From a virus: a DNA stretch of 56,920 nucleotides. Positions 1,895 to 27,068 of this stretch are shown here, one piece after another. Position numbers and translations under genes: made by a program. Within the stretch, counting starts at the first letter, position 1, and each line of letters starts with the position of its first letter. A model generated the notes under the pieces. That model was not told the origin of the DNA, did not search any database, and saw only the letters and a program-made list of their open reading frames with translations. The stretch is taken from positions 1 to 56,920 of IMG/VR virus record IMGVR_UViG_3300025120_014399; one strand, written 5' to 3'.

Positions 1895-4800
1895 ATGAGT
1901 TTATTAATACCACCACCCACTAAGTTTGTTGGACTTCATGGTCACACAGGATTTTCGGTCTTTGACGGCTTAGGATATCCATCTGATCATATTGATTTCG
2001 TTCTAGAGAACGGTATGGATGCATGGGGTTTGACTGATCATGGAAACGGATCCGGTCTAGCACACGCACACAAGCATGCAACAAAAATACAAAAAAGCGG
2101 ACGCAAGTACAGACAAATATACGGTTGCGAGTTTTACTTTGTACCTTCGTTAAAAGACTGGAAAGGTGATTACGAACAAGCTAAAATTGACCGAATTGCT
2201 GCAAAGCAAAAAGCAATCAAGGAAGAAGGCGAAGGCGGTCACATTATTGAAAACGAAGAAGAAACAAAGACCTTTGACCTAGGCAAAGACGAATGGAAAC
2301 GACGATATCATCTGGTTATTACTGCACAAAATGCTGAAGGTTTACGCAACCTCTTTACTTTAATTAAACGTGGGTATACTGAAGGCTTCTATAGATACCC
2401 ACGTATTGACTTTGACCTGCTTAAAAAGCACGGGAAGGGTTTAAATGTTTCCACAGCATGTTTAGGTGGCATTTATTCGAATAGAATTATGCGAGGTAAT
2501 GCTTTAAAAATAGGCGACGAAAAGATACAACAACAATTACATTATCTTTCTGATAGATTTGTCGATGCTGTTGGTGAAGATAATTTCTATCTTGAATTAC
2601 AGTTTAACCGACTTAAGCAACAGCATCTTGTAAATCATCATTTACTTCGTCATTCTGATCAAACAGGATTACAGTGTATTTCAACTCCTGACTCTCATTA
2701 CTATGCTCAGGACAAATGGGAAGCCCGCGAGCTATACAAGAAACTTGGCTGGATGGGCAATAATCCTTCCCCTCTGCCAGAATTCGAAGACTTGAAATGC
2801 GAACTATATCCTAAAAACGCTCAACAAATGTGGGCTGAATTTACCAGGCATTATGATGAATACGAAGATACTTACAAAGGCTATGAAGAAAAAGTTAAAC
2901 AATCAATTGAAGTCACATACGACATTGCTTGGGAAAAGTGCGAGGATTGTTGGATTGATACTTCTGTTAAGCTTCCCGATTTCAATAAGCCTGACGCGAC
3001 TGCTTTTCAACAACTGGCAGAAAAGGTCAAGACAGCGCTTGTTAAAGAAGAACTGCATACAAATCAAGAATACGTCGACAGAGCAAAAGCAGAACTCGAA
3101 GACATTAAATTCCTAGGATTTGAAAACTACTTTTTAGTAATGAACGAAGTATTTCATAAAGCTGCTGATCATACGTTGTTTGGTGCAGCACGTGGCTCCG
3201 GCGGCGGATCCTTAGTCAACTTTCTTTTAGGTATAACACAGGTAGATCCGCTTAAGTATGATTTACTATGGGAACGTTTTTTAGGGCGACATCGAACATC
3301 ATGGCCAGATATTGATTCTGATGCTGGCGATCGTGATGCACTTATTAATGCAGCTCGTGAGTTGTATGGTAATGAAGCAGTTATTCCAGTAAGTAACTTT
3401 AATACTCTTAAGTTAAAGTCGTTAGTTAAAGATATCGCAAAGTTCTATAAAATAGATTTTACTGAAGTAAATAAGATGACCGGCCCACTTCAAGATGAGG
3501 TGATGTCGCAAGCACGTGATTCAAACACAGAGAAGTCTGTATTTGTCTTAAAGCACGAAGATTGTATGAAATATTCAAAAGGTTATGGCTCTTTTATGGA
3601 AAAATATCCAAAAGTAAAGGATCATATTGAAGCCTTGTTTATGCAAAACAGATCTGTAGGTCGTCATGCCGGCGGGGTTATTATTGGTCCTCCCAAAGCC
3701 TTAGAGCAATCAATGCCAATTATCGGTGTACGAGGCGAATTGCAAACTCCGTGGACAGAAGGTATGAACTTTCGCAATCTAGAAGACAACGGTTTTATTA
3801 AGTTTGACTTTTTAGGGTTAACACTGTTAAAAGATGTTGAAAACTGTATTAGGCGTATCATGACACGTGAAAACAGCAAAGAGCCGACGTTTTTAGAAAT
3901 CAGAGACTGGTTTGATGATCATCTTAATTGTCGATATGTCGAACAAGACGATCCAGAAGTGTGGAAGCATGTATATCATCAGCGTAGAAAAGTAGGAATA
4001 TTTCAGTTTACTGCCGAAGGTGCTCGGCGTTTTTGTGAAGATGCAAAACCAACAGCAATTATTGAGCTAGCAGCATTAACTGCAATCTATAGACCGGGGC
4101 CTCTTAAAGCAAATGTACATTTAAAATATGTTAAAGATAAAGCGCGTGCTGATGAAATTGTGTATGCGCATCCTATCATTAAGGATGTCTTAGGTCCTAC
4201 ATTTGGTCACGTTACTTTTCAAGAACAGTTCATGGTGCTAGCACAGAGGTTAGGTGGGTTTAGTCCGGCTGAGTCTGATAAGCTTCGAAAGACACTAGTT
4301 AAGAAGTCACTGGATACAATGGGTAAAAAAGGTGGTGAAAGAGAAGCTGCTAGACAAAAGTTTGTTAAGGGCGCAAAAGAAATAAATGATGTGCCTGAAC
4401 ATGTTTCGCAAGAATTGTGGGAACGTATTGAATTTTTCTCTGTATACGGATTTAATAAATCACATGCTGTTGCATATGCACTCGGATCTTACTATGCAGC
4501 ATGGCTTCATACATATCATGAAACAGATTGGTTATCAACAATTCTCGAGTCTGAAAACAACAATCCAAAAAATCTTTCAAAAGCAATATCTGAAATTAAA
4601 GCAATGGGCTATGAAATAAGCACCCATGATGTTAACGAGTCAGGTCTTAGCTGGAATTATTCGGAAAAGAAAAATGCATTTATTCCGCCTCTAAATTCAA
4701 TAAAAGGTCTAGGGATTAATGCAGTTAGAGAAATCATGGCAAATCGACCTTATAGTTCTTTAGACCAGATGCTGTATGATGATACAGGTAAGTGGTACCA

Positions 4801-5410
4801 CTCAAAACTTAATAAGACGGGTTTCGCTGCTCTTTGCAAAGTAGAGGCACTTGATGCACTTGAAGAAATGTGGAAAGGCGATATTAAAAATCATAGGCAG
4901 CTTCATGAAATTATAATTGAAAGCTATGACAAACTTAAAAAATCAAAGTTTGGAATGACGTTGCGTCAAGCAAAGAAATTAGACGCAGATCCATTACTTC
5001 CACTACTTATTGAAAGCACACAAGGCGCAAAAGACTGGTCGCGTGTCGAAAAACTTCAAATGTATCAAGATATGTGCTCAGCAACACGGGATGACCTAGC
5101 TTTTCCAGATGATTTAATGGATAAGATCAAGAACAGCAATGTCAAGTCAGTTCTTAAATTTGATCCACATGAAAAAGGTATTGGATGGTTTTGTGTTGTT
5201 GAGTGGATTAAGAAGATAACACGTAATAAAAAAGTATTTTATCGTGTTAAAATAACAGATGATGAAAGCAACACGGGATGGCTTAGAATATGGGGAGAAA
5301 TACCCGATACAATGCAGCCTTATACAATATGGTTAACAGAAACCAAAAACGATCCAAACTGGGGTTGCTCAACTAGTTCTAGAAAAGTAAGACCCTTGGT
5401 GGTGTCATGA
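1895..5410 (+). CDS. dnaE: DNA polymerase III alpha subunit (DnaE-type replicative polymerase)
   Basis: At 1171 residues this is full length for the DnaE family (E. coli 1160). It begins with a PHP domain: L-H-G-H-T-G-F at residues 14-20 and L-T-D-H-G-N-G near residue 46. The palm follows, with G-A-A-R-G-S-G-G-G near residue 430, the catalytic P-D-I-D-S-D at 471-476, and R-H-A-G-G-V-I-I plus K-F-D-F-L-G for the third aspartate. The fingers and a helix-hairpin-helix segment (I-K-G-L-G-I-N-A-V) follow. A shorter OB-like tail ends the protein. It should be the chain-elongating polymerase of the phage, perhaps with the DnaQ-like exonuclease at 55861. No clamp loader or beta clamp is seen in the window. 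Confidence 0.95.
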   Translation: MSLLIPPPTKFVGLHGHTGFSVFDGLGYPSDHIDFVLENGMDAWGLTDHGNGSGLAHAHKHATKIQKSGRKYRQIYGCEFYFVPSLKDWKGDYEQAKIDRIAAKQKAIKEEGEGGHIIENEEETKTFDLGKDEWKRRYHLVITAQNAEGLRNLFTLIKRGYTEGFYRYPRIDFDLLKKHGKGLNVSTACLGGIYSNRIMRGNALKIGDEKIQQQLHYLSDRFVDAVGEDNFYLELQFNRLKQQHLVNHHLLRHSDQTGLQCISTPDSHYYAQDKWEARELYKKLGWMGNNPSPLPEFEDLKCELYPKNAQQMWAEFTRHYDEYEDTYKGYEEKVKQSIEVTYDIAWEKCEDCWIDTSVKLPDFNKPDATAFQQLAEKVKTALVKEELHTNQEYVDRAKAELEDIKFLGFENYFLVMNEVFHKAADHTLFGAARGSGGGSLVNFLLGITQVDPLKYDLLWERFLGRHRTSWPDIDSDAGDRDALINAARELYGNEAVIPVSNFNTLKLKSLVKDIAKFYKIDFTEVNKMTGPLQDEVMSQARDSNTEKSVFVLKHEDCMKYSKGYGSFMEKYPKVKDHIEALFMQNRSVGRHAGGVIIGPPKALEQSMPIIGVRGELQTPWTEGMNFRNLEDNGFIKFDFLGLTLLKDVENCIRRIMTRENSKEPTFLEIRDWFDDHLNCRYVEQDDPEVWKHVYHQRRKVGIFQFTAEGARRFCEDAKPTAIIELAALTAIYRPGPLKANVHLKYVKDKARADEIVYAHPIIKDVLGPTFGHVTFQEQFMVLAQRLGGFSPAESDKLRKTLVKKSLDTMGKKGGEREAARQKFVKGAKEINDVPEHVSQELWERIEFFSVYGFNKSHAVAYALGSYYAAWLHTYHETDWLSTILESENNNPKNLSKAISEIKAMGYEISTHDVNESGLSWNYSEKKNAFIPPLNSIKGLGINAVREIMANRPYSSLDQMLYDDTGKWYHSKLNKTGFAALCKVEALDALEEMWKGDIKNHRQLHEIIIESYDKLKKSKFGMTLRQAKKLDADPLLPLLIESTQGAKDWSRVEKLQMYQDMCSATRDDLAFPDDLMDKIKNSNVKSVLKFDPHEKGIGWFCVVEWIKKITRNKKVFYRVKITDDESNTGWLRIWGEIPDTMQPYTIWLTETKNDPNWGCSTSSRKVRPLVVS

Positions 5411-12709: not shown

Positions 12710-12979
12710 ATGTCAATTGAAGAAATTAAAAATGCTGTAAAAAATTTGCCTGACGAAAAAGTGGACCAACTTAAAAAAGATTTGTATCTTACTAGTAAAT
12801 CAAAAGGTGTTTTAGACGCAATACAAGAAAGAGTAGTTTCTAGAAAGCTTTTAGTTTTTGGTGCTTCAACAGCTCTATTTATGTGGTTTGGCTTAGATGC
12901 TGATACCTGGGGCATGATTGCAATGTGCTATATCAGCGGTCAATCAGCAATAGACTTTGCAAAGACTTGGAAAGGATAA
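12710..12979 (+). CDS. Small membrane protein, holin candidate
   Basis: This is an 89-residue protein. A charged N-terminal half (residues 1-45) is followed by two hydrophobic stretches: L-L-V-F-G-A-S-T-A-L-F-M-W-F-G-L, and W-G-M-I-A-M-C-Y-I-S-G, ending in a short basic tail. Size and layout suit a small holin or holin-like protein, but no holin family is recognised. ATG codons lie at 12707 and 12710; AGGAG spacing favours 12710. A second membrane protein follows at 13941 and a spanin-like one at 14891. Confidence 0.5.
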   Translation: MSIEEIKNAVKNLPDEKVDQLKKDLYLTSKSKGVLDAIQERVVSRKLLVFGASTALFMWFGLDADTWGMIAMCYISGQSAIDFAKTWKG

Positions 12980-23113: not shown

Positions 23114-24718
23114 ATGCAAAAAAGACATGTTATTTTTGAAGAAGATCTAGCACAAAAGCTTAAACGAGGTGTGGATACTTTGGCAAATGCTGTTAAGACA
23201 ACAATGGGTCCAAAAGGAAAGCTAGTTCTAATTCAGCGTGATCATCATCATCCAACAATTACTAAAGATGGGGTAACAGTTGCTAGATCAATTGAACTTC
23301 CCGATGAATTAGAAAACATGGCGGTTAAGGTTTTAAAAGAAGCTGCGAGTAGAACAGCTGATGACGCCGGCGACGGTACAACCACTTCAACTGTTTTAGC
23401 GCAAGCTATATTTAATGAAGGTCTTAAAATGAAGTCTGCAGGATACCAGATCGACCTTTTAAAAGCCGGTATTGAAAAAGCTGTCAAAGTAGTTATTGAA
23501 GACTTAAGTAAGAATTGCAAAAAAGTTGTTAATGATGATGAGCTAAAACAGGTTGCATTAATATCAGCTAATGGTGAAGAAGAAATTACTAATTTAATTG
23601 TAGAAGCAATCAAAGCTTCTGGTGTCGACGGGTCTGTAATTGTTGAAGAAGCACGCGGTTTTGATTCATCACTTACAATTGTAGATGGATATAGACTAGA
23701 AAGAGGATATTTATCTCCTTATTTTGTATCAAATAAAGAAAAAATGACATGTGAATTCAATAATCCTTTGATTTTCATGGCTGATAGATCATTAAATTCG
23801 ATCAGAGATCTTATGCCTATATTAGAAATGTCTCTCGAGTCTTCTAAGCCTATTGTAATCGTGGCCAACGATATTGAAGGTGAAGCAATGCAAGGGTTGG
23901 TTTTGAATAAAACCAAAGGATCACTTCGTGTATGCGCTATGAAGTCACCTGGTTTTGGTGCATCTAGACATGATCTAATGTTAGATCTTCAAGCTGTTGT
24001 AGGTGGTACAATAGTTGATTCAACATCTGATTTTTCTAAGTTTACAATTGAAGACTTTGGCACAGCAAAAAAAATAATTGTGGGAAGAACTAGTTCTATG
24101 ATTATCGCAAATAGTAAGGATAACGAACAAATAAGCACTAGAATTAATTCAATTAAAGAAAGACAGCTAGAACCTAGTGTTGAAGAGAATGAAAGAGAAC
24201 TGTTAACATACAGACTACAACAACTTTCAGGCGGAATAGCGATACTAAGAGTAGGTGCAGCAACAGAGTCTGAGCTTATAGAAAGATACGATCGTGTTGA
24301 TGATGCTCTGCATGCAACTCGTGCTGCGCTTGAAGAAGGTATACTTCCTGGTGGCGGCATAGCACTAGTTCGTGCACAAAAAATATTATTAACAAAAATT
24401 AAAAAAGAAGAAAATGATGATATTAGGAGTGGAATGATGATTGTAGCTAGGTCTATTGTGGAACCGTTTAAGCAAATCATTAGAAATGGAAAAAACTCAC
24501 CAGACTCATTGCTAAAAGAAGTACAAGATAAGAAAAGTAATGTTGGATATGACACTAGAACAGAAAAGTTTGGAAACATGTTTAAAATAGGCATTCTAGA
24601 TCCATATAAAGTTGTACGTTGTGCCTTAGAAAACGCAGCCTCAGCTGCTGTAATGTTACTTAGCGTAGGGTGTTGTTTGATAGATGTTGAGAACGAAACT
24701 TCGCTAGAGGATAATTAG
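23114..24718 (+). CDS. groEL: GroEL-like chaperonin (Cpn60)
   Basis: This is a 534-residue group I chaperonin, close to the usual 540. T-M-G-P-K-G-K lies near residue 31, T-I-T-K-D-G-V near residue 50, and the ATP-site D-G-T-T-T starts at Asp87, the same number as in E. coli GroEL. I-L-P-G-G-G-I-A-L lies near residue 412. It differs strongly from host GroEL in the apical domain, and the C terminus lacks the Gly-Met tail. It would fold phage proteins such as the capsid. No GroES gene is visible, so it may use a host or unlinked co-chaperonin, or none. Confidence 0.95.
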   Translation: MQKRHVIFEEDLAQKLKRGVDTLANAVKTTMGPKGKLVLIQRDHHHPTITKDGVTVARSIELPDELENMAVKVLKEAASRTADDAGDGTTTSTVLAQAIFNEGLKMKSAGYQIDLLKAGIEKAVKVVIEDLSKNCKKVVNDDELKQVALISANGEEEITNLIVEAIKASGVDGSVIVEEARGFDSSLTIVDGYRLERGYLSPYFVSNKEKMTCEFNNPLIFMADRSLNSIRDLMPILEMSLESSKPIVIVANDIEGEAMQGLVLNKTKGSLRVCAMKSPGFGASRHDLMLDLQAVVGGTIVDSTSDFSKFTIEDFGTAKKIIVGRTSSMIIANSKDNEQISTRINSIKERQLEPSVEENERELLTYRLQQLSGGIAILRVGAATESELIERYDRVDDALHATRAALEEGILPGGGIALVRAQKILLTKIKKEENDDIRSGMMIVARSIVEPFKQIIRNGKNSPDSLLKEVQDKKSNVGYDTRTEKFGNMFKIGILDPYKVVRCALENAASAAVMLLSVGCCLIDVENETSLEDN

Positions 24719-25377: not shown

Positions 25378-25405
25378 AATGCGTGCAACGCCGCATAAAA
25401 CGTGT

Positions 25406-25411
25406 TATAAT
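25406..25411 (+). promoter_or_regulatory. Putative -10 box (TATAAT) upstream of the sigma factor
   Basis: TATAAT within CGTGTTATAATAAC lies 51 bases before the TTG start at 25463. It leaves a leader with a strong Shine-Dalgarno (AGGGGG). No -35 box is evident. Confidence 0.5.
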
Positions 25412-25462: not shown

Positions 25463-26197
25463 TTGTATAACTCAAACTTAGACAGCTATTTTAAATCAGC
25501 TGCAAAAATTGACTTGCTCACAAGATCAGAAGAGGTTGAACTAGCTAAGAAGATCGAAGCCGGCGACATGCGCGCTCGAGAAAAAATGATCAGCGCAAAC
25601 TTAAGATTAGCAATATCTATTGCAAATAAATATGCAAAATATGGTAACGTAAGCTACGAAGACCTAATCCAGGAAAGCAATATTGGATTAATCAAAGCAG
25701 TAGAAAAATTTGATTGGCGACGAGGTTTTAAGTTCAGCACATATGCATGTTGGTGGATTAAGCAAGCTGTTACTCGTTATTTAACAGCAAACAATTCTAT
25801 TTTAAAAATACCCTCCCATACAGTTGCAAATAGTAGAAAAGTGTGGAATGTAATGAAAGAATATGAAGAAGAGTTTGGTCAGGAAGCTACAATTGAAGAA
25901 CTATCTGATATCATGGGTATTAGTGTTGATCAAGTAAAACAGGCACAAACTGCCGGGAAAGCAAGATATGTCACATCAATTGATAAGCCTATAGGCGATG
26001 AGTCAGGAAGCAGAACGTTGGCAGATATAATTCCTGACAATGCTAGAACTGTAGAAGAAGTATTTGACGGCAAGATTATAAAAGGTGTAATCGTAGAGGC
26101 GCTATCATCGCTTTCCAAAAGAGAAGAAATGGTCTTGCGTCTAAGATTTGGAATAACTGACGTTGCTGAAGAAGATCAAAATATAGTAGAAGTTTAA
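25463..26197 (+). CDS. RNA polymerase sigma-70 family factor lacking region 4.2
   Basis: This is a 244-residue protein with a TTG start behind AGGGGG. Region 1.2 ([12 protein letters not shown]) is at residues 9-20. Region 2 is complete: N-L-R-L-A-I-S-I-A near residue 46, [10 protein letters not shown] near residue 68, and [16 protein letters not shown] in regions 2.3/2.4. Region 3 (residues 119-200) has S-H-T-V-A-N-S. Region 4.1 starts with [13 protein letters not shown] near residue 224, but the protein stops about 15 residues later. The HTH that reads -35 boxes is absent, and I do not see it in another frame nearby. The next gene encodes a small HTH protein. Confidence 0.93.
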
Positions 26198-26200
26198 AAT

Positions 26201-26206
26201 TATAAT
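26201..26206 (+). promoter_or_regulatory. Putative -10 box (TATAAT) between sigma factor and small HTH gene
   Basis: TATAAT begins 4 bases after the sigma stop and lies 29 bases before the start at 26236. AGGAG follows. The two genes could therefore be co-transcribed or expressed separately. Confidence 0.4.
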
Positions 26207-26235
26207 TTAACATATTAAAAATTAGGAGAATAATT

Positions 26236-26526
26236 ATGGCAATGCCAAAAGGGTTTAAATCAAAGAACGGTTACGGAACTACAAAGTCACTAGGCGGTAA
26301 ATCTTATCATGAGATAGCAGATCATATGGTAGGCAGCGGATTTAAAATGAATCATTCAACTGCAAGAAATGTTTTTGTCAATTCTTTAATAAAAATAGCA
26401 GAACAAGTAACATCAGTTTATGACATGAGTTTAGATAAAAAACAAATCAAAGATATCGCAATTAATCCAGAATTTCAAGAAGCGATCGCTGACTTTATGA
26501 AAGATAAAAGGTACCTTAATGAATAA
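26236..26526 (+). CDS. Small HTH protein, candidate detached sigma region 4-like subunit
   Basis: This is a 96-residue protein. After a Gly/Lys-rich start, residues 24-57 read as a helix-turn-helix: S-Y-H-E-I-A-D-H-M, a turn, then N-H-S-T-A-R-N-V-F-V-N-S-L-I-K-I-A. The order E-I-A ... S-T-A-R-N ... L-x-K-I-A is like sigma region 4.2 (E-V-A ... S-R-E-R-I-R-Q-I ... A-L-x-K-L). It follows a sigma factor that lacks this region, as T4 gp33 accompanies gp55. The protein may bind the polymerase flap, DNA, or both. This pairing is inference. Confidence 0.6.
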   Translation: MAMPKGFKSKNGYGTTKSLGGKSYHEIADHMVGSGFKMNHSTARNVFVNSLIKIAEQVTSVYDMSLDKKQIKDIAINPEFQEAIADFMKDKRYLNE

Positions 26527-26788
26527 CAATCACTTACAAAGTATTTTAAACGTAAGATATCAAACAGAGCTTTTAGAATCATTAGACTGGGACGAGCAAA
26601 AAAGATCCCAGCTTTTTGAATATTTAGAAACAGAATTTAATAATTTTAACCTTAAGCGACCAGGTGAACTATTAAATTCTGTTGAACTTCACTTTGGAGA
26701 ATCAACAGCGATGATAATTAAAAAAATATTTGCAGAACAATTTAATGTGATCATACAAAACAATAGTGGAGAAAATAATGAGCATTAG
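26519..26788 (+). CDS. Hypothetical helical protein
   Basis: This is an 89-residue protein starting inside the end of the HTH gene (8-base overlap). It is helical, with W-D-E-Q-K-R-S-Q-L-F-E-Y-L and A-M-I-I-K-K-I-F-A-E-Q-F. No family is recognised. The overlaps on both sides suggest co-translation with the transcription genes. Confidence 0.6.
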   Translation: MNNNHLQSILNVRYQTELLESLDWDEQKRSQLFEYLETEFNNFNLKRPGELLNSVELHFGESTAMIIKKIFAEQFNVIIQNNSGENNEH

Positions 26789-27068
26789 ACTAACTTATTA
26801 TTTAGGCAAAAATAAAACTCACTTAAAAACATTCTGCGAAAGAATGAATCTTAAATCATACGATGAACTTTATTCTTTCTGTAATATAAAAAATATTAAA
26901 TGTGATGTAACAGAAGAAGAATATATAGCTTTGTTTCCTAAAGAAAAGAAAAAGAAAAAGAAAAATGAAGAAAAAATTATTGAAAAGCCAAAAGCTAAAA
27001 CCCGGGGACGTGGTAGAAAATCGAAACCTAAAACAGCCGGGAATTCTGATTCAAAAAACAATTCATGA
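26778..27068 (+). CDS. Hypothetical protein with a basic tail overprinted by the next gene
   Basis: This is a 96-residue protein; ATG 26778 was chosen for GGAG upstream. Residues 1-55 are a small mixed domain (L-T-Y-Y-L-G-K-N-K-T-H). The rest is a lysine-rich tail (P-K-E-K-K-K-K-K-K and R-G-R-G-R-K-S-K). About 100 bases of the tail are shared in another frame with the SH3-like gene at 26965. The tail could bind nucleic acid. The function is unknown. Confidence 0.55.
   Translation: MSIRLTYYLGKNKTHLKTFCERMNLKSYDELYSFCNIKNIKCDVTEEEYIALFPKEKKKKKKNEEKIIEKPKAKTRGRGRKSKPKTAGNSDSKNNS

Follow-up and report, generated by a model that had tools for sequence, protein, structure and literature searches.

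A phage sigma-70-family factor truncated within region 4, its linked helix-turn-helix partner and a separate region 4.2 candidate

A lineage of large uncultivated phages, with contigs of up to 340 kb, encodes a sigma-70-family protein that stops inside region 4 and is followed by a gene for a small helix-turn-helix (HTH) protein, here called MNH. The split-sigma reading of this arrangement is well supported, and several separate proteins appear to share the task of reading promoters. In the most economical account, to which we assign a probability of about 0.58, a single multi-part phage sigma factor is made up of a core with regions 1.2 to 4.1, the linked MNH protein and an unlinked protein, Cys-4.2, that carries the second half of region 4; how the parts dock, which of them reads the -35 box, the use of class I promoters (described below) by the holoenzyme and the timing during infection are what we infer within that account. 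The window analysed here is a 56.9-kb viral record (IMG/VR IMGVR_UViG_3300025120_014399; 56,920 nt) and is a fragment.

A sigma factor that ends inside region 4

The sigma ORF of the window (25463..26197, plus strand) begins with TTG and encodes 244 aa spanning regions 1.2, 2, 3 and 4.1 and a short tail. Pfam matches to regions 1.2, 2 and 3 (E values of 7e-10, 1e-19 and 9e-10) and a match to profile positions 476-692 of PHROG_351 (E = 1e-63) mark the predicted product as a primary-like member of the sigma-70 family. Pfam found no complete region 4 with the 4.2 HTH in this protein: the Sigma70_r4 match covers positions 1-26 of 50 and corresponds to the 4.1 helix and the tail (26099..26194, plus strand). 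An initial annotation of this DNA had described a sigma protein with regions 1.2, 2, 3 and the start of 4.1 that then stops, with no 4.2 continuing in another frame, and both statements held on inspection, the next ORF being a separate gene. This ORF (26236..26526, plus strand) encodes MNH, a 96-aa protein of the MNH[ST]TARN family, begins 38 nt past the sigma ORF in a different frame and has its own AGGAGA ribosome-binding site. We considered a programmed frameshift or read-through to a full sigma factor, which is ruled out by the TAA stop codon, the 38-nt gap, the other frame and the separate ribosome-binding site. Next come an 89-aa gene 3 (LLESLDWDE; 26519..26788, plus strand), found in the closer relatives of the window, and gene 4 (26778..27068, plus strand), which encodes a protein of the RRK family with an N-terminal Y.LF..RK motif and a Lys/Arg-rich C-terminus. 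The RRK family is the third conserved member of the cassette and lies downstream of the HTH gene in 106 of 120 HTH-bearing loci; RRK genes also occur in two loci from bacterial genome bins, L126 (8553-8837) and L128 (8323-8622, there after a fused ORF).

Truncation extends far beyond the one window and is confirmed as a family trait. When IMG/VR was scanned with the sigma sequence, 42 loci were returned, of which we read through 41; 39 of these stop shortly beyond an RLRFGI motif followed by a short tail, and the remaining two, which retain a normal 4.2, are only distantly related. All 92 distinct sigma relatives with a detectable partner have the same stop inside region 4 and an MNH homologue downstream, and 6-36 residues follow the RFG motif in these 92 split sigmas, compared with 43-61 in complete phage sigmas. 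Despite the loss of 4.2, the 4.1 helix is near-invariant (LS.REE.ILRLRFGI) in the truncated proteins and is therefore still under selection. Each of 13 large contigs (13/13) encodes a single Sigma70_r2 protein.

Elsewhere in the window, genes at 380-715, 1895-5410 and 23114-24718 resemble, by eye, those for ClpS, bacterial DnaE polymerase and GroEL. An N-terminal motif like MKI.RKQLRK[LI]I.E is common to some ten proteins that are otherwise dissimilar (at 12957, 13412, 33471, 35603, 36481, 37304, 38266, 44347, 51492 on the minus strand, and 53968), possibly a targeting or scaffold tag. A similar N-terminus is found on a 323-aa protein encoded at 2642-3613 (minus strand) of L304, the contig of L128; besides two KKRGRP motifs, this protein carries a sigma-4.2-like HTH (LHEIAAILGVTTEGARQIVRKA).

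A linked HTH protein and an unlinked region 4.2 half

Scanning for the motif MNH[SA][TS][AV]RN matched 252 related IMG/VR stretches, and a truncated sigma gene lay 5' of the HTH gene at all loci checked (92 distinct sigma sequences). The two genes are separated by -89 to +38 nt in 75 of 91 measured loci and by 150-712 nt in the other 16, all of which belong to one subclade. MNH beside a complete sigma factor, which the initial annotation had named as evidence against its proposal, was also sought and was absent at all 53 complete phage sigmas examined (0/53). Across 89 sequences, N39, H40, R44, F80 and Q81 are invariant, and by this conservation the HTH protein is a real conserved family, with no match among INPHARED phages by tblastn. 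An AlphaFold2 model of MNH (pLDDT 82) predicts confident helices at 24-33 and 40-61 that are paired as in an HTH, and the invariant residues N39-H40 and R44 fall where the second of them begins.

The identification of this 96-residue protein as region 4.2, proposed in the initial annotation, fared less well. Searches of Pfam, PHROGs, PDB sequences and PDB folds gave no significant match for MNH, whether to region 4.2 or to any other family; the best Pfam E value to Sigma70_r4 was 0.02, with such matches in 4 of 39 members, and the MNH profile found weak helical matches only among PDB sequences. Alignment with hhalign placed MNH on 4.2 in the expected register, weakly (P 0.02-0.03) though better than almost every decoy, and in a decoy test the full-length sigma profile ranked first among non-family profiles and aligned at 4.2, with a P of 0.024 that does not amount to significance. 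With MNH alone, Foldseek found nothing in the PDB and, in BFVD, one 72-aa uncharacterised phage protein (probability 1.0, TMt 0.78). MNH and Cys-4.2 showed no similarity to each other. Assignment of MNH to region 4.2 is thus not supported by sequence comparison; the part of the split-sigma proposal that stands is the sigma protein without 4.2 and its linked HTH partner, with 100% linkage and one fusion, and the part not borne out as stated is the neighbour as a demonstrable region 4.2.

Two further observations concern the position of MNH relative to the sigma core. We modelled a read-through product from an in-frame relative, L050, with the stop codon read as Gly, and this single-chain model matches sigmaA and sigmaS chains over about 300-340 columns; the alignment length implies that the predicted match spans MNH, but the linker (residues 238-262) has a pLDDT below 50, too low to judge how 4.1 and MNH pack. 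Bacterial genome bins yielded three further cases. In L126 and L127 the sigma and HTH proteins are encoded by separate genes, which overlap in L127, and in L128 both are contained in one 357-aa ORF with the HTH C-terminal to 4.1. The HTH frame of L128 has no ATG, GTG or TTG start between 4.1 and the N-terminal segment of the HTH, and short A-runs lie at the fusion junction. By placing the HTH where 4.2 belongs, the fusion provides strong evidence that, as one metagenomic case, is not conclusive. A search for fused-ORF relatives in viral contigs returned ordinary full-length sigmas only, which were then taken as controls.

A Sigma70_r4 search of the large relatives identified a second small protein, Cys-4.2, of 73-103 aa. 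It has four invariant cysteines followed by TLQQIGDIFGVTRMRICQIEK, the motif after the cysteines being TLQQIGDIFGVTRMRICQ[IL]EK, and at every locus with enough flanking sequence its gene is divergent to phoH. Cys-4.2 matches Sigma70_r4 at positions 18-49 with E values from 4e-10 to 1e-8, which pass the curated cut-off, and the hydrophobic positions canonical for 4.2 are retained; on PHROG_351 it aligns at 693-727, so that it abuts the segment matched by the truncated sigma. These profile matches make Cys-4.2 a clear predicted homologue of region 4.2 and the recognisable missing half of region 4. Its recognition residues are altered and read TRMRICQ, for which we take the sigma-70 counterpart to be TRERIRQ. 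All 10 split-sigma contigs of 236 kb or more (10/10) encode Cys-4.2, as do 2 of 6 of 200-236 kb, and it is missing from every virus contig shorter than 200 kb, these being possibly fragments; about 48-184 kb separate its gene from that of the sigma factor, and fragments therefore miss it. The window, a fragment, has no Cys-4.2, and tblastn found no match to it among INPHARED phages. One of 22 full-sigma phages has the protein (G053, the phage of L047), as a separate Cys-4.2-like 80-aa ORF at 154656-154862.

Lineage-specific promoters and the reading of the parts

The sigma gene of the window is preceded by a promoter (25383..25411, plus strand) with GTGCAA at 25383-25388, a 17-bp spacer and TATAAT at 25406-25411. 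This class I motif, GTGYAA-17-TATAAT, also precedes the sigma genes of many relatives, and GTG[CT]AA stands exactly 17 bp before TATAAT in intergenic regions of the window and three relatives. Counted at spacings of 17-18 bp, class I sites number 7 in the window against about 0.2 expected, 11 in genome G2 and 19 in genome G9 against 0.1 expected in each; TTGACA showed no enrichment at this spacing. Across 33 split-sigma contigs we found 195 GTGYAA-16/18-TATAAT sites versus 5 in reversed controls, and across 22 full-sigma contigs 4 versus 7. The class I promoter, with a real -35 box, is specific to the split-sigma lineage. Within the lineage its form varies: genome G8 has CTGTAAA with a spacer fixed at 19 bp, no class I motif was found in the G12 phage (61% GC), and class I is absent in the L128 phage, which has abundant promoter-like TTGATA-17-TA(G/A)GAT sites in its place. 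The L128 sites often lie inside CAGTTGATATTC. The initial annotation had further proposed that the split factor reads only -10 boxes; the conserved GTGYAA box at 17 bp in the dominant lineage-specific promoter counts against this, for class I only and if the split sigma reads class I.

A second motif, ATANTTA, is enriched 25-50 nt upstream of start codons in genomes G1, G2 and G8, in each of which it has rank 1 of 20 permutations; the structural half of G9 shows enrichment as well. In the window it is not significant by the permutation control, and it is also enriched in full-sigma phages and frequent in a full-sigma control. We treat it as a lead only, a candidate second promoter class (class II) or some other leader element.

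Under the multi-part reading, the 244-aa protein would use regions 1.2-3 to bind RNA polymerase and the -10 element while retaining only helix 1 of region 4 (4.1). MNH, encoded in the same operon, would work with it and take the place of its missing end, probably docking on the 4.1 helix and the beta flap and lying on upstream DNA. Cys-4.2 is the best candidate reader of the GTGYAA -35 box because it is a 4.2 homologue whose recognition residues are altered relative to sigma-70.

The main rival is a late switch like that of phage T4, in which the host holoenzyme would read class I promoters early and in the middle of infection, and the split sigma with gp33-like flap binders would read late promoters that consist only of a -10-like box, with ATANTTA as the candidate. 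In T4, late promoters have no -35 box and gp33 mimics sigma4 (PMC2988020, PMC7892883). The genomic distribution of the motifs fits such a switch: class I in the window precedes replication and metabolic genes (DnaE-like, flap-exonuclease-like and helicase-like) and the sigma gene and hardly occurs in the structural half of G9, candidate class II sites in the window precede other, partly virion-like, genes, and ATANTTA exceeds its permutation controls in three genomes. Against it stand the behaviour of ATANTTA in the window and in full-sigma phages, a class I -35 box that differs from TTGACA and is confined to split-sigma phages, whose hosts presumably differ, and the fixed 19-bp spacer of G8. 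Region 2.4 of the sigma protein also keeps what we take, from a comparison with sigma-70 by eye, to be the canonical -10 residues. On balance we regard the late switch as possible and distinctly less probable than the multi-part sigma.

It is doubtful that Cys-4.2 alone is the missing part and MNH a co-transcribed regulator, such as an anti-sigma factor, an activator or a DNA-binding protein, that is structurally outside the sigma factor. The clear homology of Cys-4.2 to 4.2, its exact continuation of the sigma profile with canonical hydrophobic positions, and the lack of any relationship between MNH and Cys-4.2 speak for that division of roles, whereas the linkage of MNH in every case, its fusion after 4.1 in L128 and the failure to detect Cys-4.2 on the 158-kb L128 contig speak against it. 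A shade less likely still is a core with two exchangeable region-4 modules, in which Cys-4.2 would direct it to class I (nTGYAA-17-TATAAT) and MNH to another class (candidate ATANTTA); were this so, gene sets would be switched by swapping the -35-reading piece and not the whole sigma factor. An assembly error, a sequencing frameshift or a decaying gene, for which a domain missing from a single contig would be the sole argument, is vanishingly improbable and is refuted by the identical end point in 92 distinct relatives, their preserved 4.1 conservation and their open frames.

Comparison with known split sigma factors

The precedents named in the initial annotation, T4 gp55/gp33 (PMC2988020, PMC7892883) and Bacillus subtilis SigO/RsoA (PMC8103513), proved relevant. 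The T4 late system has been described as a split sigma (PMC2988020) and, as in the multi-part sigma proposed here, joins a phage sigma-family core without the -35-reading domain to a small protein of its own that stands in for sigma4. A T4-type partner is defined by binding to the beta flap and the sliding clamp. T4 gp55, however, has only the region 2 homology domain, whereas the window sigma is no sigma2-only core and keeps regions 1.2 to 4.1. T4 gp33 does not resemble sigma factors in sequence and does not recognise specific DNA sequences, and the GTGYAA -35 box of the split-sigma lineage has no equivalent in T4 late promoters. The lineage differs from T4 also in that the break falls inside region 4 and the true 4.2 half is on a third protein.

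Bacillus phage SPO1 gp34/gp33 likewise pairs a sigma gene with a small accessory gene, the two overlapping by 4 nt and being annotated as sigma factor and accessory. SPO1 gp33 belongs to its own family, PF25742 (Phage_Gene33; match 2e-38), outside which MNH falls, and gp34 reaches further into region 4 (positions 4-36, weakly); the gene order in SPO1 is accessory then sigma, whereas in the split-sigma lineage the sigma gene precedes MNH. The phiKZ/AR9 nvRNAP promoter subunits are similar in that giant phages use highly diverged sigma-like promoter recognition (PMC7618050), and differ in being one chain within a phage-encoded RNA polymerase. B. subtilis SigO/RsoA is, like the proposed factor, a two-protein sigma (PMC8103513). 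It is cellular and is cut between the sigma2 and sigma4 domains, whereas the split-sigma lineage is cut within region 4. We know of no third module in SigO/RsoA.

In the open-access literature searched, we found no paper describing a region-4 cut with both halves kept, a linked HTH and a lineage-specific -35 box. Known split sigmas are few and cut between domains, whereas the phage lineage described here is cut within one folded domain, has kept both halves of region 4, has gained a linked HTH protein and bears a recognisable promoter of its own. Its promoter motifs help to annotate expression classes in uncultivated phages, and the lineage is a clean natural setting in which to test whether region 4 can act as a non-covalent, exchangeable module.
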